Shown here: positions 1 through 14,657 of the stretch, one piece after another | How the letters are laid out: every line of letters begins with the position of its first letter | How positions within the stretch are numbered: position 1 is the stretch's first letter | NCBI RefSeq assembly: GCF_937859865.1 | Contig: NZ_CALMAT010000123.1 | Span: 33,861 to 67,901, forward strand | Source: an uncultured Mucilaginibacter sp. | GTDB taxonomy: Bacteria > Bacteroidota > Bacteroidia > Sphingobacteriales > Sphingobacteriaceae | Direction of reading: 5' to 3' | Length of the DNA: 34,041 nt | The notes under the pieces: model-generated | What the model saw: only the letters and a program-made list of their open reading frames with translations | Told to the model about the DNA's origin: nothing | Databases searched by the model: none | Made by a program: the position numbers and the translations under genes

Positions 1-426
1 ATGATCGTGTAAATAACGGTCTTTCAGGATAAATAAAAACTCGGTCCCGCCAAAAATAGAGCTTAAACGAAGCTGGTCGCCGCCGGTAAACATCACCACA
101 TCTGCTTTTTTGATGCGTGCTAAATAAGCAGGGTTGGCGGCATCTTCGCGGCTGCGGATGTCCAGCACGTTTACGTTCTCCACATCAAGTTGGTTAAAAG
201 CTTTGATATACTCTTCGCCAACCAGTTCCGGGATTTGGGAAGCTGTGGTAACGACTTCAACAATAGAGTTTTCTGTATGGGCAGATTCTGTAATGATCCG
301 TTTTAAAATTCCATGCTCAAAAAACCGGAGGTGGTCTGGCTGTTTGATGTTTTCCAAGGCACTGATGTTCGTACCCAAGTCAACGGCACCGCCTATAATT
401 ACTAATTTGCCTGTTGGTATGCTCAT
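1..426 (-). CDS. cphB: cyanophycinase (peptidase S51 family), C-terminus cut by window edge
   Basis: Cyanophycinase is a serine-type exopeptidase that cleaves the storage polymer cyanophycin (multi-L-arginyl-poly-L-aspartate) to beta-Asp-Arg dipeptides. The 142 visible residues begin MSIPTGKLVIIGGAVDLGTN and contain a segment matching the family's typical FTGGDQ motif (VVMFTGGDQLRLSSIFGGTE). The reading frame stays open to position 1, so the C-terminal half, including the active-site serine region, lies outside the window. The ATG at 426-424 follows a TAnnTTTG-type box on the same strand. The gene is divergent from cyanophycin synthetase, with 152 bp between the two starts, so breakdown and synthesis of the polymer are encoded back to back. 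The + strand ORF that overlaps this gene is an antisense shadow. Confidence 0.88.
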   Translation of the reverse strand, partial: MSIPTGKLVIIGGAVDLGTNISALENIKQPDHLRFFEHGILKRIITESAHTENSIVEVVTTASQIPELVGEEYIKAFNQLDVENVNVLDIRSREDAANPAYLARIKKADVVMFTGGDQLRLSSIFGGTEFLFILKDRYLHDH

Positions 427-451
427 CAATGAAAAATTAAAGGTATTTTTC

Positions 452-459
452 CAAAGATA
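452..459 (-). promoter_or_regulatory. putative Bacteroidota -7 box for the cyanophycinase gene
   Basis: Read on the minus strand this is TATCTTTG, an exact match to the Bacteroidota -7 consensus TAnnTTTG, 26 bp upstream of the cyanophycinase ATG. No clear TTTG element is visible at the expected -33 distance, so only the -7 half is supported. Confidence 0.4.
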
Positions 460-548
460 ACGGCACGCAGCACGAATAGTTGAACGATAATTGTATTTTA
501 TATTCAAAAACTTATTTAATTGCAGGTGTTTCAACAAAAAAACAGGTA

Positions 549-560
549 TAAAAACAGCAT
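549..560 (+). repeat. dispersed motif copy, ACAG form, 5' leader of cphA
   Basis: TAAAAACAGCAT lies 18 bp before the cphA ATG in the divergent cphB-cphA spacer. It is one of 13 exact copies of TAAAAACAGYA in this window (see findings). Confidence 0.7.
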
Positions 561-578
561 TAACAGCATATATATTTT

Positions 579-1943
579 ATGAAGATTGAAAAGATTCAGG
601 TACTGAAAGGGCCAAATATTTGGAGCACTTACCGGAAAAAGTTGATACAAATGCGCCTGGACCTGGAGGAATTGGAAGAACAGCCAACTAATACGATTGT
701 CGGTTTTTACGAAAGGCTGGAAGCTTTTATGCCTTCGTTGTACAGCCACCGCTGTTCGCCCGGTGTGCCCGGCGGTTTTTTTGCCAGGGTAAAAGAAGGG
801 ACTTGGATGGGGCATGTGATTGAGCATATCGCCCTCGAAATACAAAGTTTGGCCGGCATGGATACTGGTTATGGCCGCACCCGAGAAACGCATACCAAAG
901 GTGTTTACTACGTAGTTTTTAATTATGAGGAAGAAAAAGTAGGCGTTTATGCAGCCGAAGCGGCCGTCAGGATTGCTAAAGCACTGATCAATAATTTGCC
1001 TTATGATTTGGAGGAAGATATCCAACAGCTTAAAAAAATCCGCGAGCAAACGCGTTTAGGGCCAAGCACAGGTTCTTTGGTAGAAGAAGCGATTGCCCAT
1101 GATATTCCCTGGATCAGGCTAAACAATCAATCTTTGGTGCAATTGGGTTATGGCAAAAACCAGGTGCGCATCCGTGCAACCATGACCGAGCGCACCAGCA
1201 GTATTGCCGTTGATTTGGCCGGCAACAAAGAAGAAACCAAACGTTTACTGGAAGAACAAGCCATCCCCGTGGCAAAAGGCATGACCGTTACTTCTGTTGC
1301 AGGCGTTCACGAAGCCATCCGAAAAGTTGGTTTCCCTTTGGTTTTCAAGCCTTTGGATGGCAACCACGGGCGCGGCGCAACCATCAACGTAAAAACAGAA
1401 CAGGAAGCTTTGGATGCTTTTGAACATGCCGCAAAGGTTTCCCGGAAAGTGATTGTAGAACGGTTTATTATCGGTTACGATTTCCGGATCTTGGTGATTG
1501 ATTATAAAATGGTGGCTGCGGCACTACGCGTTCCGGCAAATGTAATTGGCAACGGAAAATCAACCATTCAGGAATTAATTGATATGGAAAACAGCGATCC
1601 GCGGCGTGGTTACGGACACGAAAACGTGCTGACCGAAATTAATATTGACCGCGACCTCTTAGATTTACTCGATAAAAGAAGCTATACTTTAGAAAGCATT
1701 CCGCCCGAAGGCGAACAAGTTTTCCTGAAATCCACCGCAAACCTTAGTACCGGCGGAACTTCGGTTGATGTTACCGATATGGTGCATCCGCAAAATATTT
1801 TTTTCTGCGAACGCATTGCGCGCATCATCGGCTTGGATATTTGCGGGATTGATATCATGGCCAAAAACCTTACCCAGCCTTTAACAGAAAACGGCGGCGT
1901 AGTGTTGGAAGTAAATGCTGCGCCCGGTTGCAGGATGCATTAG
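579..1943 (+). CDS. cphA: cyanophycin synthetase, N-terminal part ending at an in-frame TAG
   Basis: CphA polymerises aspartate and arginine into cyanophycin with ATP. It has an N-terminal domain, an ATP-grasp domain and a C-terminal Mur-ligase-like domain. This 454-residue part holds the N-terminal domain (about residues 1-160) and the ATP-grasp domain, which ends in the family motif EVNAAPG followed by CRMH. The protein stops at TAG 1941-1943. The same reading frame continues to 3203 with the Mur-ligase domain, so a single gene of about 874 codons has been split by one stop codon. Known CphA proteins normally read GFRMHLAPS.GLPRN here; this sequence reads GCRMH-stop-ASSADLPRN, the same length with several substitutions. 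Either the gene is a recent nonsense mutant, or the sequence is wrong locally, or two polypeptides are made. An ACAG-form motif copy lies in the leader, and near-matches to the dispersed motif occur at 790 and 1673. Confidence 0.85.
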   Translation: MKIEKIQVLKGPNIWSTYRKKLIQMRLDLEELEEQPTNTIVGFYERLEAFMPSLYSHRCSPGVPGGFFARVKEGTWMGHVIEHIALEIQSLAGMDTGYGRTRETHTKGVYYVVFNYEEEKVGVYAAEAAVRIAKALINNLPYDLEEDIQQLKKIREQTRLGPSTGSLVEEAIAHDIPWIRLNNQSLVQLGYGKNQVRIRATMTERTSSIAVDLAGNKEETKRLLEEQAIPVAKGMTVTSVAGVHEAIRKVGFPLVFKPLDGNHGRGATINVKTEQEALDAFEHAAKVSRKVIVERFIIGYDFRILVIDYKMVAAALRVPANVIGNGKSTIQELIDMENSDPRRGYGHENVLTEINIDRDLLDLLDKRSYTLESIPPEGEQVFLKSTANLSTGGTSVDVTDMVHPQNIFFCERIARIIGLDICGIDIMAKNLTQPLTENGGVVLEVNAAPGCRMH

Positions 1944-1958
1944 GCGTCTAGCGCAGAT

Positions 1959-3203
1959 TTGCCTCGAAATATAGCGGCACCAGTGATTGATATGTTGTAC
2001 CCTTACGGCAAATCCGCCCGCATCCCCATTATTGCTATTACCGGAACGAACGGTAAAACCACAACTACACGTTTAATTGCCCATTTGGTAAAAAACAACG
2101 GTTACCGGGTTGGTTTTACCACTTCGGATGGCATCTACGTTCAAAATACGTTGATGTTAAAAGGCGATACCACCGGCCCGGTGAGTGCAGAATTTATCTT
2201 AAAAGATCCAACGGTCGAATTTGCGGTGCTTGAAACGGCCCGCGGCGGGATTTTACGGTCGGGTTTGGGTTTTGGCCAATGCGATATCGGCGTTTTGACC
2301 AATATCCAGGAAGACCATTTAGGTTTGAACGATATCCATACGCTTGATGAATTATCCAGGGTAAAAGAAGTAGTGATCAATTCGGTGAAAAAAAGCGGTT
2401 GGGCCGTAATCAATGCCGATAATGAATACTGTGTTAAAATCGGCAAAAGGGCCGGTTGCCATGTGGTGTATTTCAGTATGGACGAAAACAACCCGATCAT
2501 CGTGCAGCAATCCAACCTGGGCAATATTTCCTGCGTTTACGAAAACGGTTACATCACCATCAAAAAAGGCGGTTGGAAAATAAGGGTGCAAAAAGCAGCA
2601 CAAATCCCGCTGACTTTTGGCGGAACGGTAAGCTTTATGATCCAAAATGTTTTGGCGGCCACGCTTACAGCTTTTGTTTGGGGTTTCCGTACCGAAGATA
2701 TCAAAACTTCGCTCGAAACCTTTATCCCTTCAGCAGCGCAAACGCCCGGCCGGATGAATATTTTTCCGTTTAAAGATTTTAAAATTATGGTGGATTTCGC
2801 CCACAACCCGGATGGCTTTAACGGTATCAAACAGTTTTTGCAAACCATTGATTCTCCGCAAAAAATTGGTTTGATTGCCGCAACCGGCGACCGCCGGGAC
2901 GAAGATATCCGCGAAATTGGGCGTATCGCAGCAGAAATGTTTGACCACATCATCCTTCGGCAGGAAAACCATTTGCGCGGCCGCAAAAAAGAAGAACTGT
3001 TAAAGCTGATGGAAGAAGGCGTTTTATCGGCAGAAAAAAAACCAACCTACGAAATTGCACCCGGGGAAATGGATGTGTTTGAACACGCCATCCGGATGGC
3101 AAAACCAAGCGCTTTTATTGTTGCTTTGAGTGATGTGGTTGATAATGCAATTGATGTCGTGCTGCGTTTTCAGGAAAAAGAACGTGCCGGAACGTTTATT
3201 TAA
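1959..3203 (+). CDS. cphA: cyanophycin synthetase, C-terminal Mur-ligase part (same frame, after the TAG)
   Basis: This is the remainder of cyanophycin synthetase, in frame with the part ending at 1943. It contains the Mur-ligase ATP-binding loop ITGTNGKTTTTRL at about residues 28-40, GGILRSGLGFG, the EDHLG segment, the VDFAHNPDGF segment and ATGDRRDEDI. In the intact enzyme this domain adds arginine to the aspartate backbone. The only start after the stop is a TTG at 1959, with no ribosome-binding sequence, so separate translation is uncertain and this may be the untranslated remnant of a nonsense mutant. The dispersed motif TAAAAGAAGTA sits in the coding sequence at 2362-2372, read as Val-Lys-Glu-Val. 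The 3' end overlaps the convergent glycosylase gene by 8 bp. Confidence 0.75.
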   Translation: MPRNIAAPVIDMLYPYGKSARIPIIAITGTNGKTTTTRLIAHLVKNNGYRVGFTTSDGIYVQNTLMLKGDTTGPVSAEFILKDPTVEFAVLETARGGILRSGLGFGQCDIGVLTNIQEDHLGLNDIHTLDELSRVKEVVINSVKKSGWAVINADNEYCVKIGKRAGCHVVYFSMDENNPIIVQQSNLGNISCVYENGYITIKKGGWKIRVQKAAQIPLTFGGTVSFMIQNVLAATLTAFVWGFRTEDIKTSLETFIPSAAQTPGRMNIFPFKDFKIMVDFAHNPDGFNGIKQFLQTIDSPQKIGLIAATGDRRDEDIREIGRIAAEMFDHIILRQENHLRGRKKEELLKLMEEGVLSAEKKPTYEIAPGEMDVFEHAIRMAKPSAFIVALSDVVDNAIDVVLRFQEKERAGTFI

Positions 3204-3825
3204 CCTTTCGACGACTCAAATATTCGTGCCATAAAAGCATGGTGGCAATGGTACGATAAGGTTTCCAGGCTTCTGCAATTTGCAGAAGCCTTTCTTTTGA
3301 AGTTTCGGGCGGCAGGTTTTTCACTCGTTTGATGGCTTGGACAACGGCCAAATCGCCAATTGGGAAAACATCTGTGCGATGCAAAATAAAGATGAGGTAA
3401 ATGTCCGTCGTCCAGTTGCCGATGCCTTTTATTGCGGTCAGTTTTGTCCGAACTTCATCGTCTGGCAACAAAACCAGTTCATCTAATTTTAAGTTTCCGC
3501 TTAAAATAGTTGCTGCTAAATCTCGGGCATAAACTGTTTTTTGCCGGCTAAAATAACAGGCTTTCAGTTCTTCATCAGTTAAAGCCAACAGGTTTTCTGC
3601 GGAGATTTGGCCAATTTTTTCTTTCAGTTTTTGCAGTGCCGATAAAGCTGAAGCCAGCGAAACCTGCTGTTCCAAAATGATATGTACTAATGATTCAAAC
3701 GTGTTTGGCCTGCTCCAAAAAGGTGGATAACCGTACACTGAAATTATGGTGCTAAAAGAAGCATCGCGGTTGGCGAGTTCATTACAAAGCTGGTTTAGGT
3801 TTTGTTGGGTGAATGAAGCGGGCAT
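3196..3825 (-). CDS. DNA-3-methyladenine glycosylase, AlkA/HhH-GPD family
   Basis: This base-excision repair glycosylase would remove alkylated purines such as 3-methyladenine from DNA. The 209-residue protein carries the helix-hairpin-helix motif IKGIGNWTTDIYL (residues 132-144) and then the Gly/Pro-rich loop with catalytic Asp158 (VFPIGDLAV), the HhH-GPD signature. It is shorter than E. coli AlkA (282 residues) because it lacks the N-terminal beta domain, as is common in bacterial homologues. It converges on cphA with an 8-bp overlap. Two odd DNA features lie inside the gene: a 25-bp near-perfect palindrome at 3267-3291 and a full copy of the dispersed motif at 3753-3764, which encodes Asp-Ala-Ser-Phe-Ser on this strand. 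I am sure of the family but not of the exact substrate range. Confidence 0.87.
   Translation of the reverse strand: MPASFTQQNLNQLCNELANRDASFSTIISVYGYPPFWSRPNTFESLVHIILEQQVSLASALSALQKLKEKIGQISAENLLALTDEELKACYFSRQKTVYARDLAATILSGNLKLDELVLLPDDEVRTKLTAIKGIGNWTTDIYLIFILHRTDVFPIGDLAVVQAIKRVKNLPPETSKERLLQIAEAWKPYRTIATMLLWHEYLSRRKVK
3267..3291. repeat. 25-bp palindrome inside the glycosylase gene
   Basis: AGGCTTCTGCAA and TTGCAGAAGCCT are perfect 12-bp inverted arms around a single central T. The palindrome is fully within coding sequence, where it encodes part of RLLQIAEAWK. It could fold into a strong hairpin in either strand or bind a dimeric protein; it may also be chance. Confidence 0.6.
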
Positions 3826-3905
3826 CGGCTGTATTAAATGTTAAAGATTGAACATGCTTCGTTGCAGAATGATTTAATTTAGCAACCAATTTAAAATAAT
3901 TTTGA

Positions 3906-5081
3906 ATGACTCCGACTAATCCTTGCAACCGCCTTCAACCCATACTGTTTTTAGCACTGTTTTTTTGCTGCATTTCCGCTTGTTCTTCCCTCAAAAAAGT
4001 ACCGGTAAAAGAAGTATCGGCAACCATCAGCAGCTTAAAATTTTTGGATGAATACGATTTGCCGTACAACCTGCAATACCAAAATACAACAGTCGGCGGT
4101 TTATCAGGCATTGATTACGATGCAAAAAACGATGTGTATTATATCATCAGCGATGACCGTTCGGAGATCAACCCTTCGCGTTTTTATACAGCTAAAATCA
4201 GCTTGGCCGGAAAAGAAATCAACAGCGTAAAACTCATCGCGGTAACTACTTTAAAACAGCAAAACAACCAGCCGTACCCGGATTTGAAGCAGCACACCAA
4301 AGAAACCGTTGACCCGGAAGCCATCCGCTATAACCCCAAAACCAATCAATTAATTTGGAGCAGTGAAGGTGAACGCATTGTAAAACAAGGAGATACAGTT
4401 TTGATTGACCCGGCTGTAAATATCATTTCTACTTCCGGGAAATTGATTAACACCTTGCCGTTGCCCAACAATTTAAAAATGCACGCAACAGAAACCGGGC
4501 CACGCAGAAACGGCGTTTTAGAAGGCTTGACTTTTGCCGATAACTACCAAACGCTGTACGTAAACCTGGAAGAACCGTTGTACCAGGACGGGCCGCGTGC
4601 TGACGTAACACCAAACAATGCCTTGGTCCGCATTTATAAATTTGATTGGAAAACGAAGCAAAACACGGCGCAATATGCCTACCAGCTTGAACCGGTTGCA
4701 TATCCGGCAAAGCCTGAAAACGGGTTTAAAATAAACGGAATCCCGGATATTCTTTCCATCAACAAAAACCAGCTTTTAGTTACCGAGCGTTCTTTTTCTG
4801 ACGGGAAAGAAGGTTGCGTGATTCGCGTTTTTCTGGCTGATTTAACTGGTGCGGACAATGTGGTGGATAATGCTTCTCTCCTAAAAAATCCGCCGCAACA
4901 TTTGATTCGCAAAAAGCTTTTATTAAACATGGATGATTTGAAAATCTATATTGATAACGTGGAAGGAGCAACCTTTGGCCCGACTTTGCCAAACGGACAT
5001 CATACAATCATTTTTGTGGCGGATAACAACTTTGCAAAGACGGAAAAAACGCAGTTTTTGCTGTTTGAGGTGATTCCATAA
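3906..5081 (+). CDS. phytase-like esterase domain lipoprotein
   Basis: This 391-residue protein has a lipoprotein signal: a hydrophobic stretch from about residue 11, then the lipobox ISAC with Cys26. It is therefore expected to be exported and lipid-anchored. The body matches the 'esterase-like activity of phytase' family: repeated beta-propeller style segments GGLSGIDYDAKNDVYYIISD, DPEAIRYNPKTNQLIWSSEG, GVLEGLTFADNYQTLYVNLE and DNVEGATFGP. The substrate is not known for most members, so phosphoesterase activity is a family-based guess. Two copies of the dispersed motif sit in the first 40 codons, an ACAG form at 3943-3953 on the minus strand and a GAAG form at 4006-4017 (Val-Lys-Glu-Val). 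A further copy follows the stop codon by 9 bp. The ATG at 3906 is the only start that keeps the signal peptide. Confidence 0.8.
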   Translation: MTPTNPCNRLQPILFLALFFCCISACSSLKKVPVKEVSATISSLKFLDEYDLPYNLQYQNTTVGGLSGIDYDAKNDVYYIISDDRSEINPSRFYTAKISLAGKEINSVKLIAVTTLKQQNNQPYPDLKQHTKETVDPEAIRYNPKTNQLIWSSEGERIVKQGDTVLIDPAVNIISTSGKLINTLPLPNNLKMHATETGPRRNGVLEGLTFADNYQTLYVNLEEPLYQDGPRADVTPNNALVRIYKFDWKTKQNTAQYAYQLEPVAYPAKPENGFKINGIPDILSINKNQLLVTERSFSDGKEGCVIRVFLADLTGADNVVDNASLLKNPPQHLIRKKLLLNMDDLKIYIDNVEGATFGPTLPNGHHTIIFVADNNFAKTEKTQFLLFEVIP

Positions 5082-9595: not shown

Positions 9596-10093
9596 ATGGA
9601 AACAGCACTTCGATATGCCACTGCCGATGACGTGCCCATGCTTCGTTTACTGGCAGAAAAAATATGGTGGCCAACGTATGCCGAAATTTTAAGCAAAGAA
9701 CAAATTCGGTTTATGTTGGATAAGATTTATGACGAAGACAAGCTTCGTTTACAGATAGAAAATGAGGAACAAACGTTTTTGATTTTATCAGAAAATAATG
9801 TTTCCATAGGTTTTACCGCTTTTTCTGCAGATCAGGAAAACCCGCAATTGATGACGCTGGAAAAAATTTACTGTTTGCCCGAAATGCAGGGAAAAGGCTA
9901 CGGCAAATTGCTCATCAATACCGTTGAAACCAAAGCGCGCGAAGCCGGAAAAAGCATTTTACAATTGTATGTCCACCGGCAAAACAAAGCCCGCAACTTT
10001 TATGAAAAGCTAAATTTTAAGGTGGTAAAAGAAGTAGACCGGCCGTTGGGGAAATTTTTGCTGACGGATTTTGTGATGGAGAAGAAGGTGTAG
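9596..10093 (+). CDS. GNAT family N-acetyltransferase
   Basis: This is a 165-residue acetyl-CoA-dependent acetyltransferase. The acetyl-CoA binding motif LPEMQGKGYGKLLI is at residues 94-107, and the C-terminal segment NKARNFYEKLNFKVVKEV is typical of the family. The start at ATG 9596 is chosen because it begins METALRYATADDV, the usual start of the fold; the frame is open further upstream but there it overlaps the ABC gene. The substrate cannot be told from sequence. A long-form copy of the dispersed motif lies at 10026-10036, encoding Val-Lys-Glu-Val, with AATTTTAAGGTGG just before it. Confidence 0.85.
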   Translation: METALRYATADDVPMLRLLAEKIWWPTYAEILSKEQIRFMLDKIYDEDKLRLQIENEEQTFLILSENNVSIGFTAFSADQENPQLMTLEKIYCLPEMQGKGYGKLLINTVETKAREAGKSILQLYVHRQNKARNFYEKLNFKVVKEVDRPLGKFLLTDFVMEKKV

Positions 10094-10102
10094 AATATGT
10101 TT

Positions 10103-10555
10103 TTATTTAGGCTTCTTTTTCAATGCTTCAATATCTCCTAAATCTTTTGCCCTTCCTGATGCTTTTTTATTTGCAATAAAATCAGTGATGTTGATGTACG
10201 AAATTTTAAGTTCATCTACTTCTGCATCTATTTTTCCTTTGTATGCATCATCAAAATCAACACCGGATATAGAATTTAAAATGTCTATTCTTAAAGGAGG
10301 ATGACCTAATTGTGTAACGTGGTTTTCCTTTACAAAATCCTTTTGGGCAAGTCTCAAAGAACCAAATCCAAAATCTTTTAAAACTTCCACCATTTTATCG
10401 GCATTTTCAATGCTTGGCTTAATCCATATATCCAAATCACCAGTATGCCTTGGTTGTCCATGAAAAGCTAAGGCGTGAGCACCAACTATCATATACTCAA
10501 CTTGATGAGCGTTTAATAATTCAATAAAATCTACAAAGTCCTTTTCAAAAATCAT
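10103..10555 (-). CDS. nucleotidyltransferase (MNT/AbiEii-like), probable toxin-antitoxin or regulatory partner
   Basis: A 150-residue minimal nucleotidyltransferase. The fold signature is EYMIVGAHALAFHGQPRHTG followed by DLDIWI, with the two metal-binding aspartates in DLD. The family is known for DUF6036/AbiEii-like proteins in mobile defence or toxin-antitoxin pairs, some of which add nucleotides to a partner protein or to tRNA. Here it overlaps the small upstream gene by 4 bp (ATGA), so the two are translationally coupled. Local base composition looks more AT-rich than the neighbours, which suggests later acquisition. The role as toxin or antitoxin is inference. Confidence 0.72.
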   Translation of the reverse strand: MIFEKDFVDFIELLNAHQVEYMIVGAHALAFHGQPRHTGDLDIWIKPSIENADKMVEVLKDFGFGSLRLAQKDFVKENHVTQLGHPPLRIDILNSISGVDFDDAYKGKIDAEVDELKISYINITDFIANKKASGRAKDLGDIEALKKKPK

Positions 10556-10749
10556 AAAGTTCGTTGGGATACTACTTTTTCAATTTTTTCAGGATAAAAG
10601 CCATTTAACCAAGTATAGTAGTTAACCCTTAATCTGGTAACTTCTGCAAGTCTTTCTGTTAAACTTTTAGATTTCCAGAATTGAACATCCAAATAATCTT
10701 CATCTTCCATTTTTACATGGTTAACTACCATTGCCATTTTTCTTTCCAT
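10552..10749 (-). CDS. small partner protein coupled to the nucleotidyltransferase
   Basis: A 65-residue protein read from the ATG at 10749 (MERKMAMVVNHV). A longer frame begins at 10770 but overlaps a TATATTTA box at 10760-10753. The core FWKSKSLTERLAEVTRLR resembles the 'FW.SK..ERL..V..LR' small proteins found directly upstream of nucleotidyltransferase genes in many bacteria. Its stop overlaps the start of the nucleotidyltransferase (ATGA, 10552-10555). I do not know its function; a toxin-antitoxin partner is the obvious guess from gene order. Confidence 0.6.
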   Translation of the reverse strand: MERKMAMVVNHVKMEDEDYLDVQFWKSKSLTERLAEVTRLRVNYYTWLNGFYPEKIEKVVSQRTL

Positions 10750-10803
10750 ACTTAAATATACTAAAAACAAAAATGTGTTTTAGGTTGATTGAAGAGAAAA
10801 ATT

Positions 10804-12099
10804 CTACTCCTCCAACTTCGGAATCCGTTTCGGCGTATCCTTTCCATCCACAATGCTTCTCGAACTTAAAGCAATGGCGCGAATGGTTGCCGTAATATTA
10901 TTTACATCCAACGAACTGAATTCGTCTTTTACGCTGTGGTACAATTTGTCCGAATCAATCTGATCGGTGGAAATGGTGTGCGCCGGAACGCCAACTTTGG
11001 CCAGCGAAGCATTATCACTGCGGTAAAATAAGTTTTGTTCGGGATACGGATCAGGATAAAATTTAAAGTTGGTGCCTTCCAAGTTTTTCTGCAAAATCGT
11101 GCCGAAATCAGAACGCTCAAAACCGGTGATAAAAGCAGTATTTTCTCCGAATTTAGAAGCTTTGCCAATCATTTCGATATTAAACATCGCTACTGTTTTT
11201 ATCGGGTCAATTTGGGTGGCAAAATAAGCTGAACCATATTCTCCTATTTCTTCGGCCGTAAAAGCCACAAAAATTAAAGTACGGGCATTGTTGTTCAGCT
11301 TTTTGTAGTATTTGGCCAGTTCAATTACGGCTGTTGTTCCGCTGGCATCGTCGTCGGCGCCGTTGGCAATCGAATCGCCTGCAACCGGTTTTATAATCCC
11401 TAAATGATCGTAATGGCCGGAAAAAACCACGTATTCTTCTTTCTTGATTTTTCCCGGGATCATTCCTGCAATGTTAAACAAAGGCAGTTTTTCTACTTTG
11501 CCGGTATATTTTACGGCATAAGCTTTTACATCGGTAAAATCGCCCAGAACAAAAACCAATTGTTTGTTGGTGTTTAGTTCTTTGCTAACGTTGCCGCTGT
11601 TGTTGCGTGCTGCAATGCGTTTAAACAAAGCTTCAAACTGCGGGTCAACCAGTACCAGCATTTTTTTATTGCTGCTGATGATTTTGGAATATTCTGTCCT
11701 GAAATTCTTTTCAGCGCTAATTTTTACAATTTCTACATCTGCATCATTGCTCCAATTAAACGAAGCAGAACTACTTTGCACGGTTACGTTTTCTTTTGGC
11801 ACAATTGTATTACCAATGGAAGCTGAAACTTCTACCGGCGTGCTTTTGTACATGCTAAAATTTTGGCGGTAATCTTTATTGCCCGTAAGCGGCAGCAAAC
11901 CGATGTTTTTGTATTCGTTTTCGATAAAACGTGCTGCTTTTTCGATGCCAGGCGTAAAGGTTGCGCGGCCTTGCATATCATCTGCCGAAAGTGTTTTGAT
12001 CACGCGTTCCACATCGGCTTTAACAATTAGTTGTTCGGGTTTTTGAGCAAAGGTCTGGCAATTTATTCCGATTAATAGCAGCAGCAGTTTAAATTTCAT
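10804..12099 (-). CDS. M28 family zinc aminopeptidase, secreted
   Basis: A 431-residue exported peptidase with signal peptide MKFKLLLLLIGINCQTFAQ. The two-zinc M28 site is visible: His229 in FSGHYDHLG, Asp249/Asp250 in NGADDDASG, Glu283/Glu284 in FTAEEIGEYGS, Glu309 in NIEMIG (Asp is more usual) and a late His in PAHTISTDQ. A PA-type insert lies between about residues 90 and 215, as in larger members. It probably trims peptides in the periplasm or at the surface. A GCAG-form motif copy is at 11130-11141 inside the gene. The gene is alone on its strand. Confidence 0.88.
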   Translation of the reverse strand: MKFKLLLLLIGINCQTFAQKPEQLIVKADVERVIKTLSADDMQGRATFTPGIEKAARFIENEYKNIGLLPLTGNKDYRQNFSMYKSTPVEVSASIGNTIVPKENVTVQSSSASFNWSNDADVEIVKISAEKNFRTEYSKIISSNKKMLVLVDPQFEALFKRIAARNNSGNVSKELNTNKQLVFVLGDFTDVKAYAVKYTGKVEKLPLFNIAGMIPGKIKKEEYVVFSGHYDHLGIIKPVAGDSIANGADDDASGTTAVIELAKYYKKLNNNARTLIFVAFTAEEIGEYGSAYFATQIDPIKTVAMFNIEMIGKASKFGENTAFITGFERSDFGTILQKNLEGTNFKFYPDPYPEQNLFYRSDNASLAKVGVPAHTISTDQIDSDKLYHSVKDEFSSLDVNNITATIRAIALSSRSIVDGKDTPKRIPKLEE

Positions 12100-12160
12100 A
12101 AAGGAGAAAGAATAATAGCAAAGATGATGAAAGGTGAAAGCGAATGTTATATCAAAAGCA

Positions 12161-12172
12161 ATGCTTCTTTTA
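12161..12172 (-). repeat. dispersed motif copy upstream of the M28 gene
   Basis: ATGCTTCTTTTA with following TCGGGTTAAATTTAGTGTG, close to the left half of the 8766-8853 element. It is a half element: no facing copy is present in the 129-bp spacer between the M28 peptidase start and the first AhpD-like stop. Confidence 0.75.
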
Positions 12173-12228
12173 TCGGGTTAAATTTAGTGTGGATTATCTT
12201 GATTTAAAAAAGGTTTCAGCCAAGCAGT

Positions 12229-12768
12229 TTAATACTTTCCATAACCAACGTGGGCCATTCTTTCGCCCATTTCTGCATAAGCTTCGTTATGTGCAGGTGC
12301 CCAAGTGCCAAGGCCATCTACATAACGGTTATACATGCAAAAAGCAGCAGCGATCAGCACCGTGTCGTGTATTTCTGTATCCGTTGCGCCTTGTTGGCGT
12401 GCAGCAGCTACATCATCTTTGGTAACATTCTTGCCGTTTTGCTGTACCTGATGGGCAATATGCAATAAAGCCCTTAATTTGTCAGAAACTTCTGTTTCTA
12501 ATAAACCTGCTTTGATATCATCAATCAAACCAAGTCCGCTTTTTAAATGTGCTGCCGCTGCCGCTGCATGGGAAGTGTGGCAGAAATGGCATTTGTTCCA
12601 GTAGGAAACAGAGGCGGCAATAATTTCCCTTTCGCCGCTGGTTAGGGTTGATGGGCCTCTCAATAAAGTTTCTGCAAGTAAAAGAAGTGGCTCGGCAGTT
12701 TGCGGACGATAATTTAACAAGCCAACAATTCCGGGAAGTTCTTCGTTTAATAATTTAATATGTGCCAT
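12229..12768 (-). CDS. carboxymuconolactone decarboxylase / AhpD-like peroxidase-related protein (copy 1)
   Basis: A 179-residue AhpD-fold protein with the redox motif CHFCHTSHA (CxxC plus His), preceded by SGEREIIAASVSYWNKC. Such proteins act as alkylhydroperoxidases or thiol reductants; the exact reaction cannot be told. It is a tandem paralogue of the next gene, 11 bp apart, sharing HDTVLIAAAFCM and NRYVDGL almost exactly. The two are probably transcribed together from upstream of 13361. A near-miss of the dispersed motif (TAAAAGAAGTG) is at 12679. Confidence 0.82.
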   Translation of the reverse strand: MAHIKLLNEELPGIVGLLNYRPQTAEPLLLLAETLLRGPSTLTSGEREIIAASVSYWNKCHFCHTSHAAAAAAHLKSGLGLIDDIKAGLLETEVSDKLRALLHIAHQVQQNGKNVTKDDVAAARQQGATDTEIHDTVLIAAAFCMYNRYVDGLGTWAPAHNEAYAEMGERMAHVGYGKY

Positions 12769-12779
12769 TTTGTTGTTTT

Positions 12780-13361
12780 TTAAGGATTTTGTAATTGTTC
12801 CTGATCTCTGTTTACTTTAAAAGGTGCAGTTAGATAACCTTCGCGTGCGCGCTGTTCGCCCATTTTATCATACAGTTCATCATTATCTGGCTGCCAAGTG
12901 GCCAAACCATCAACATAACGGTTAAACATGCAAAAAGCAGCGGCAATCAACACCGTATCATGAATTTCTATATCCGTTGCCCCTTCATTCCGCGCAAATG
13001 CTACGTCTTCCGGCGTAACGTTTTTTCCGCCGCTTTGTACTTTTGCTGCTATTTTTAATAATGCTTTAAGTTTGCTGCTTATCGGTGCAGTTTCCGGGTT
13101 TGCCAGTACCTGTTTTACAATTTCGGCATTATTGCCCAACTGATGTTTTGCAATTGCGCCATGGATACTGCAACAATATTTACAGGTATTTAAATCGGAA
13201 ACATACGTTGCAATCAATTCGCGCTCACCTGCACTTAATGTTGGGTGCGGATTATGCAACAAGGTTTGTACAAGTGCATTTAATGGTGCTGCAGTTTCAG
13301 GGCGAAACATAAACAGGCTCCTGATACCAGGAAATTCTTCAGGTAGATTAATGTATGGCAT
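12780..13361 (-). CDS. carboxymuconolactone decarboxylase / AhpD-like protein (copy 2)
   Basis: A 193-residue paralogue of the downstream gene. I start it at the ATG at 13361 (MPYINLPEEFPGIRSLFMFR), since copy 1 starts similarly (MAHIKLLNEELPGIVGLLNY); an in-frame upstream start at 13418 only adds a hydrophobic, low-quality extension. The redox motif is CKYCCSIHG, with an extra Cys directly after the CxxC. The C-terminus is extended by about 14 residues relative to copy 1. Confidence 0.8.
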   Translation of the reverse strand: MPYINLPEEFPGIRSLFMFRPETAAPLNALVQTLLHNPHPTLSAGERELIATYVSDLNTCKYCCSIHGAIAKHQLGNNAEIVKQVLANPETAPISSKLKALLKIAAKVQSGGKNVTPEDVAFARNEGATDIEIHDTVLIAAAFCMFNRYVDGLATWQPDNDELYDKMGEQRAREGYLTAPFKVNRDQEQLQNP

Positions 13362-13524
13362 AGTAAAGTATTTTAGGAAGATTGGTTTAAACAGGATTAA
13401 AATTATAAATAAATCCAACTATCACTACAAACTATGAATAATAAAAAATACGATTTTTAAAGTCTATCTTGTAAAACTTATATCCCCCCTCTCAAACGCA
13501 GTAATTAAACCAAAAAAACCTTTA

Positions 13525-13536
13525 TAAAAGAAGCAT
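13525..13536 (+). repeat. dispersed motif copy touching the DUF4407 stop codon
   Basis: TAAAAGAAGCAT ends at 13536, the last base of the minus-strand DUF4407 stop codon (13538-13536). On the coding strand the motif therefore starts at the last A of the stop. Confidence 0.75.
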
Positions 13537-14657
13537 CACGTTTTCAAATCTTCGCGCATCAACTTACGTTCGGCACGTTTTGAAATGTTGTTTTTGGTGA
13601 GGTTGATATTGGTGTTGATGCGATAATCCTGAACGGCGTCTGTAACGGTCATGTCCTGCTCCATATCTTTCTCCGCAAAATGAATATTGGCTTCTTCAGT
13701 TTTGCCCAAAGCCACATCGTACGGGCCTTTCGGCGACATCAGCTTAACCAAAACCGGCAAACACTCAAATAAAATAAACAAGTAACTGATGAAGGATTGC
13801 GCCAGATAAGTGTCCAGTTCGCGCGTTCCGTTGGGGTTGTACGAAAGCTGGCCCAATGCCCAATTCCGGTCGGCAAAACCTGCTACGTTGCTCAAGCTGT
13901 CCAACTGCCGGTCGTTAAATAGTTTGGTATCGGTTACGCCTTCCACGTCTTTTCGGGTGGCAATATATTGTTCCATTTTGGCCTGGTCCTGGCGAACGGT
14001 ATTTAGGCGGGATTCTTTCTCCTTCAAAACCTCGTCTTTTTGTTTGGCAAAAGTGCCGAAACCGGTTTTGCCCGAAGTCTGGTTGGTTTTATCGCCAAAA
14101 ATTTCCTGGTTCAATTGGTAACGCGAACGGTTGATGTCTTTTTCAAGCGAATCCCTTTCGGCTTTAATATCGGCCGCTTTTGCCAAATCCATGCCGTACT
14201 TTTTATTAAAAGTAATGTTCATGGTATCAATTTTAGACCGTTGGCCTTTGAGATAAGCGTTTTTCAGTTTGGAGCGGATTTCTTTGTCAAAAATCTTTAA
14301 CTCCAGCGGACGGGAAATCACAATCCCAATCATGATGGCCAGCAAAATACGCGGCGTGGCCTGCAAAATCTGTTGGTTAACAGAACCTCTTTTGTTAATG
14401 CTGCCCACAATATAGCGGTCCATATTAAAAATGGCGGTGCCCCAAATCAATCCAAATAATATGGCAAAAAACGGTGCGCCAGGGTTTCCGCTGAAAACGA
14501 AATACATGGCATAACCGCCAGACAAGGCAGCAAACAAAGCTGTAAAAAATATAGTTGCCCCGATGCCTACATATTTGTTCATTTCGATCGGGTACTTTTT
14601 TAAAGTATCCAAGTGCACGCCAGAGCAGAACCAGAAAAATCGGTTTACTTGTTTCAT
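13536..14657 (-). CDS. DUF4407 domain-containing membrane protein
   Basis: A 373-residue protein starting MKQVNRFFWFCSGVHLDTL. Hydrophobic helices lie near residues 30-52, 58-75 and 105-122, then a long charged, coiled-coil-like region (about 125-265), then another membrane helix near 290-310 (SFISYLFILFECLPVLVKLM) and a hydrophilic tail. This is the DUF4407 layout common in Bacteroidota. Function is unknown; it may anchor a cytoplasmic or periplasmic coiled coil. It is separated by 195 bp from the divergent rhodanese gene. Confidence 0.82.
   Translation of the reverse strand: MKQVNRFFWFCSGVHLDTLKKYPIEMNKYVGIGATIFFTALFAALSGGYAMYFVFSGNPGAPFFAILFGLIWGTAIFNMDRYIVGSINKRGSVNQQILQATPRILLAIMIGIVISRPLELKIFDKEIRSKLKNAYLKGQRSKIDTMNITFNKKYGMDLAKAADIKAERDSLEKDINRSRYQLNQEIFGDKTNQTSGKTGFGTFAKQKDEVLKEKESRLNTVRQDQAKMEQYIATRKDVEGVTDTKLFNDRQLDSLSNVAGFADRNWALGQLSYNPNGTRELDTYLAQSFISYLFILFECLPVLVKLMSPKGPYDVALGKTEEANIHFAEKDMEQDMTVTDAVQDYRINTNINLTKNNISKRAERKLMREDLKT

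Follow-up and report, generated by a model that had tools for sequence, protein, structure and literature searches.

A cyanophycin synthetase gene of an uncultured Mucilaginibacter sp. with an in-frame TAG inside a short patch of altered codons, probably the result of a local error in the consensus or the assembly

The DNA analysed here (the window, 34,041 bases from an uncultured Mucilaginibacter sp.) comprises bases 33,861-67,901 of the 67,901-base scaffold C123, which belongs to a scaffolded draft genome of 177 contigs and 3.98 Mb in which the N gaps are short (10 or 100 N). Close to its start lies a cyanophycin synthetase reading frame (cphA1) with one interruption, next to the first part of a divergent cyanophycinase gene (Table 1). 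The first-pass annotation had described a cyanophycin synthetase cut by an in-frame TAG with the frame kept on both sides, and this was borne out by the sequence; the frame starting at the ATG at 579 reaches the TAG and is open and in register beyond it to the stop at 3201-3203. Read through with the TAG as X, the frame gives 1244 bits against TIGR02068, above the curated cut-off of 850, while the 5' piece (454 aa, 681 bits) and the 3' piece (545 bits) each fall below it. Pfam searches revealed the Cyanophycin_syn N-terminal domain and RimK ATP-grasp in the 5' piece and Mur_ligase_M together with Mur_ligase_C in the 3' piece, where two possible restarts, TTG 1959 and ATG 1992, are found 16 and 49 bases 3' of the TAG. 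The motifs GTNGKTTTT and EVN are present, the identity to the uninterrupted genes of two same-genus genomes is 87% (G002) and 85% (G001), and when compared with the solved CphA1 structures (7LG5/7LGJ, 7WAC) residues 1-861 align to 7lg5_A with E 4.5e-283. The interrupted gene encodes a cyanophycin synthetase of the ordinary bacterial type (CphA1), differing from the TIGR02068 proteins in that the chain of N, G and M domains, continuous in CphA1, is broken by the TAG at codon 455 and in that four positions of the segment EVNAAPGFRMH...RNV, invariant among relatives, are altered.

Table 1. Features at the cphA1 locus; positions are those of the window except where a scaffold position (C123) is given.
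Feature	Position	Strand	Basis or remark
10-N scaffold gap	C123:33851-33860		ends one base before window position 1; inside divergent cyanophycinase gene
Divergent cyanophycinase, first 142 codons, cut by 10-N gap	1..426	-	TIGR02069
Cyanophycin synthetase (cphA1) reading frame, one interruption	579..3203	+	TIGR02068 score on read-through; identity to same-genus genes
5' piece: N domain and ATP-grasp (G) domain without last ~27 residues	579..1943	+	TIGR02068, Pfam
Patch: six departures within 15 codons, TAG among them	1929..1973	+	codon-by-codon comparison with L003, L004 and 106 relatives
In-frame TAG, codon 455	1941..1943	+
3' piece: ATP-grasp end and Mur-ligase (M) domain	1944..3203	+	TIGR02068, Pfam

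The partial cyanophycinase matches TIGR02069 with E 7e-26 and 91 bits (cut-off 126.6, for a protein cut by the gap) and has no Pfam match, and its coding sequence matches relatives on both sides of the 10-N gap. A cyanophycinase gene commonly lies near that of CphA1, without strictly defining the enzyme. Adjoining it, about 0.5 kb before the window, is a gene of 280 aa resembling Asparaginase_2 and isoaspartyl peptidases (C123:32527-33366 on the minus strand, L113:12527-13366), with a Pfam E value of 3.1e-75 and 119 bits against the NCBIfam beta-aspartyl-peptidase model (cut-off 567). When up to 3 kb of the sequence flanking cphA was considered on both sides, 67 of the 80 cphA loci L032-L111 were found to contain a relative of this gene; the 80 loci are the best matches to the cphA1 gene of the window, many of them from Mucilaginibacter and Pedobacter, and no sample of all Bacteroidota. 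In each of the 30 of these 67 cases for which positions were listed it is situated upstream of cphA on the opposite strand, and the Thr at the beta-subunit start of solved isoaspartyl peptidases (the nucleophile position) is aligned in 66 of the 67. An excerpt of PMC10206079 describes the isoaspartyl dipeptidases of Firmicutes and Bacteroidota as still undiscovered, and a literature search for later work gave nothing beyond that paper. For the cyanophycin dipeptide hydrolase of Bacteroidota the Asparaginase_2 gene may be put forward as a candidate, and as such it is of more interest than the patch in cphA1.

Two further observations were made elsewhere in the window. Around 10091-13538 there is a stretch of about 3.4 kb that corresponds to about 0.4 kb in the syntenic interval of G002, and its frames we take to be nucleotidyltransferase-like, M28-peptidase-like and, in two cases, AhpD/carboxymuconolactone-like. 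The frame at 9608-10090, presumably GNAT-like, carries 29 own-lineage residue changes in 161 codons, in several clusters, compared to 11 and 10 in the siblings, which may reflect either faster evolution or replacement.

When cphA1 was compared codon by codon with its relatives (106 in all, from the 80 loci L032-L111 and the 26 loci L003-L028, giving 101 distinct rows), six departures were identified in codons 451-465, namely F451C, L455 to stop, P457S, E459A, G460D and V465I, a departure being a residue unique to this genome where both same-genus genes agree. The segment reads GCRMH*ASSADLPRNI (the asterisk marking the TAG), it contains no N and its nearest N gap is about 1.9 kb away. Inspection of the codons showed the minimal base differences at the six departures to be of mixed type. 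All four changes listed in the first-pass annotation (Phe to Cys, Leu to TAG, Pro to Ser and Gly to Asp) are thus present, but the extent given there for the cluster was incomplete, as the changes at codons 459 (1953, Glu to Ala) and 465 (1971, Val to Ile) join it. The residues F451, R452, M453, H454, P457, G460, R463, N464 and V465 are present in 106 of 106 relatives, and among them F451, P457, G460 and V465 are replaced by C, S, D and I in the window gene, leaving the C-terminal segment of the ATP-grasp domain without its full set of invariant residues. At the position of the TAG, where the family had been said to have Leu, this holds for 80 of the 106 relatives, but Ile (23), Val (2) and Thr (1) occur as well.

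To what degree these changes are clustered can be seen from the 210 columns that are invariant among the relatives, at four of which (451, 457, 460 and 465) the window gene departs, and at none of the other 206. Random placement of four departures among the 210 columns put all of them within 15 codons in 8 of 200,000 trials. In a leave-one-out comparison of 102 distinct sequences, a test that is lenient towards any sequence with a very close sister among those compared, as its departures can then be hidden, the maximum number of departures per 15 codons was zero in 79 sequences, one in 20, two in 2 and four in the window gene only. The clustering of the patch exceeds chance by the invariant-column test; as many or more departures in total can be found in other sequences (ten in L021 and four each in L026, L027 and L028), all of them scattered. 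A cruder count, that of residues unique with respect to two same-genus relatives, does not set a value of 6 per 15 codons apart: in variable genes of this scaffold the maximum is 7 for the own lineage and 8 for that of G002.

The remainder of the gene was studied by counting own-lineage codon changes, only at positions where both siblings have an identical codon. Nonsynonymous to synonymous changes were 15/50 in codons 1-449 and 8/46 in codons 467-873, with 12/55 and 11/59 for the same flanks in G002 and 21/75 and 10/60 in G001, while codons 450-466 gave 4/1 for the own lineage versus 0/0 and 0/4 for the siblings. These numbers suggest ordinary purifying selection in both flanks and, being sibling-like, indicate that cphA1 is under normal constraint or had been so until very recently. 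The earlier description of an otherwise well-kept gene is therefore sound, the flanks being about as well kept as those of the siblings. A long-standing pseudogene, where cphA1 was lost earlier and is now decaying, would be expected to contain a premature stop and changed invariant residues, as this gene does. However, stepwise decay after the stop would have spread over the gene, while here all four invariant-column departures are confined to 15 codons, an arrangement as rare among random placements as given above, the frame is kept throughout and selection in both flanks is comparable to that in the siblings, with no sign of relaxation. Old decay must therefore be regarded as highly improbable.

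A third option raised in the first-pass annotation was a natural split into ATP-grasp and ligase subunits, with the second product restarting at TTG 1959 or ATG 1992, and to this may be added read-through of the stop or the use of TAG for an amino acid. The frame kept on both sides of the TAG and the restart codons shortly downstream are what such readings call for, but the position of the stop argues against them. In excerpts of PMC9427784 the ATP-grasp (G) domain of TeCphA1 is stated to end at residue 487, and the exchange of its Arg458 for Ala to impair activity. With an alignment offset of 6 we infer that the G domain would end around codon 481 in the present gene and that Arg458 would correspond to R452, three codons before the stop. 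By this mapping the stop would be situated about 27 residues inside the G domain, leaving a 5' product without the end of its core domain, and the invariant F451, P457, G460 and V465 beside it are lost as well. In a split enzyme the break would be looked for at a domain boundary and in common with relatives, and neither was found by this mapping or in the relatives examined. Among 59 relatives, 26 have a cphA match of at least 821 residues (one of them cut by a contig end) and none of these 26 contains a stop, nor was any stop seen in codons 440-478 of the other aligned sequences. In total, a cphA match was obtained in 202 of 399 genomes, the own genome included, and among the matches listed six other stops were flagged, of which four after realignment coincide with the C-terminal end (residue 872), the other two being absent from an alignment that reaches to residue 868. 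The same TAG in relatives, proposed earlier as a sign of a real split, was accordingly not seen in any relative whose alignment or row was examined. TAG is an ordinary terminator here, ending 14 of 96 orthologues, which speaks against a reassignment of the code. RNA structure that could serve recoding at the stop was not found beyond chance (z = 0.15), and no suppressor tRNA was present among the 6 tRNAs in the sampled 22% of the genome, an observation of little weight. Searches for cyanophycin synthetase, Bacteroidetes, Sphingobacteria and split forms gave no report of a split CphA1 in the titles and abstract openings listed. The suggestion of two subunits is thus unsupported, and among the explanations considered a natural split, read-through or recoding is the least probable, and very unlikely.

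Other genes of the scaffold and of the genome were compared as well. In rarA and fabD, on the same scaffold, no departures were found at the 149 and 109 columns, respectively, that are invariant among 29 relatives each (the loci returned by a search of 41 genomes, the own locus excluded). Sampled sequence amounting to 863,263 bases (41 of the 177 contigs, some partial and four only N) was set against 500 kb of G002, whereby 134 frames were matched at 65% identity or more, covering 44,620 codons. Stops were flagged in five of the 134 frames, cphA included, and cphA is the sole one with an internal stop away from N gaps and frame ends. The stop in C38 was rejected as its frame adjoins a 10-N gap and that in C29 as it is at residue 245 of 246, while the stops in C18:54651 (residues 25 and 31 of 192) and C123:51833 (residues 10, 20 and 24 of 309) come early in the reference frame, towards its 5' end, and were read as start-site differences. 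Two of the 134 frames are split, each at a 10-N gap. Neither contig-wide decay nor a large number of error patches was found in the scaffold genes or the 134 sampled orthologous frames, and no second cphA copy was found in the genome. Amino-acid mismatches within 60 nt of gaps are not raised (23/194 compared to 6,091/45,211 overall), and as the gap edges are not rich in mismatches the assembly shows no general tendency to bad patches at its joins. The 10-N gap before the window shows that the assembly is fragmented at this locus, without touching the patch.

The main rival to an error in the sequence is a real and very recent inactivation in the strain by one clustered mutation event, such as a template switch, error-prone repair or a mutation shower. 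The trace left by a single recent event would likewise be one compact cluster in an otherwise intact gene, and the clean rarA and fabD together with the absence of another such stop among the 134 frames are in line with it. Part of the patch falls within an imperfect inverted repeat (11-nt arms at 1953-1963 and 2007-2017, 91% complementary), but on inspection the arm disagrees with the window at base 1955. When searching for a template within 1 kb, one offset was found to fit all six changed bases, but with only 41% identity over the patch, and with random bases a fit to all six turned up at one offset or another in 129 of 200 trials, so that template switching from nearby sequence does no better than random bases. 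No direct repeats were found at 1850-2050. A search of the genome sequence with the patch returned itself and a 17-base chance match (E 1.66), and its 25-base core with up to 3 mismatches returned only itself; neither a second copy nor a gene-conversion donor was found in the genome sequence searched. Exact matches to the patch reach up to 12 bases in the sampled genome and 10 within window positions 1-4000, lengths for which there is no control. A clustered mutation is a possible explanation, though a distinctly less probable one than an error.

Consensus errors in draft and metagenome assemblies are a general class, which the present case resembles in its very short patch, mixed base differences, clean flanks, absence from the relatives examined and scaffold with N gaps, and from which it differs in that the gap edges of this assembly are not enriched in mismatches. 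An error is favoured by six departures in 15 codons with mixed base differences, the four at invariant columns being isolated, by the clean flanks, by rarA and fabD without departures and by a draft assembly with short N gaps, as well as by the lack of a donor for the patch and of a second cphA copy that could relax selection. With no habit of error at gaps and no second such gene in 134 frames, a one-off error and a one-off mutation look alike. Nevertheless, for an isolated patch with good flanks, absent from the relatives examined and located in a draft assembly, sequencing or assembly is the most likely cause, and we consider it probable that the TAG and the patch at 1929-1973 are a local consensus or assembly error. 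The first-pass reading of a local sequence error or recent damage is supported to this extent, the invariant-column departures falling in one patch of about 43 bases, the rest being well kept and the stop having no counterpart in the relatives examined.

If the patch is real, which we hold to be possible but doubtful, a very local clustered mutation would have hit the catalytic core of the cyanophycin synthetase in this lineage, recently enough for the rest of the gene to be undecayed so far. The strain would then make no cyanophycin but keep its cyanophycinase, and could only use polymer from outside; it would provide an uncomplicated example of clustered mutation restricted to one gene, and a natural setting in which to see whether the retained cyanophycinase supports a scavenging life. 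According to the favoured explanation, an error, positions 1929-1973 would be a short wrong consensus in a fragmented draft, for example from thinly covered or wrongly joined reads, and the break would not be in the organism. The enzyme would be whole in the cell, its ATP-grasp domain adding Asp to the backbone and its Mur-ligase domain adding Arg to the side chain (roles as given in excerpts of PMC9427784), and the divergent cyanophycinase would degrade the product. From the record as it stands, neither a synthetase in two parts nor the loss of nitrogen storage should be concluded.
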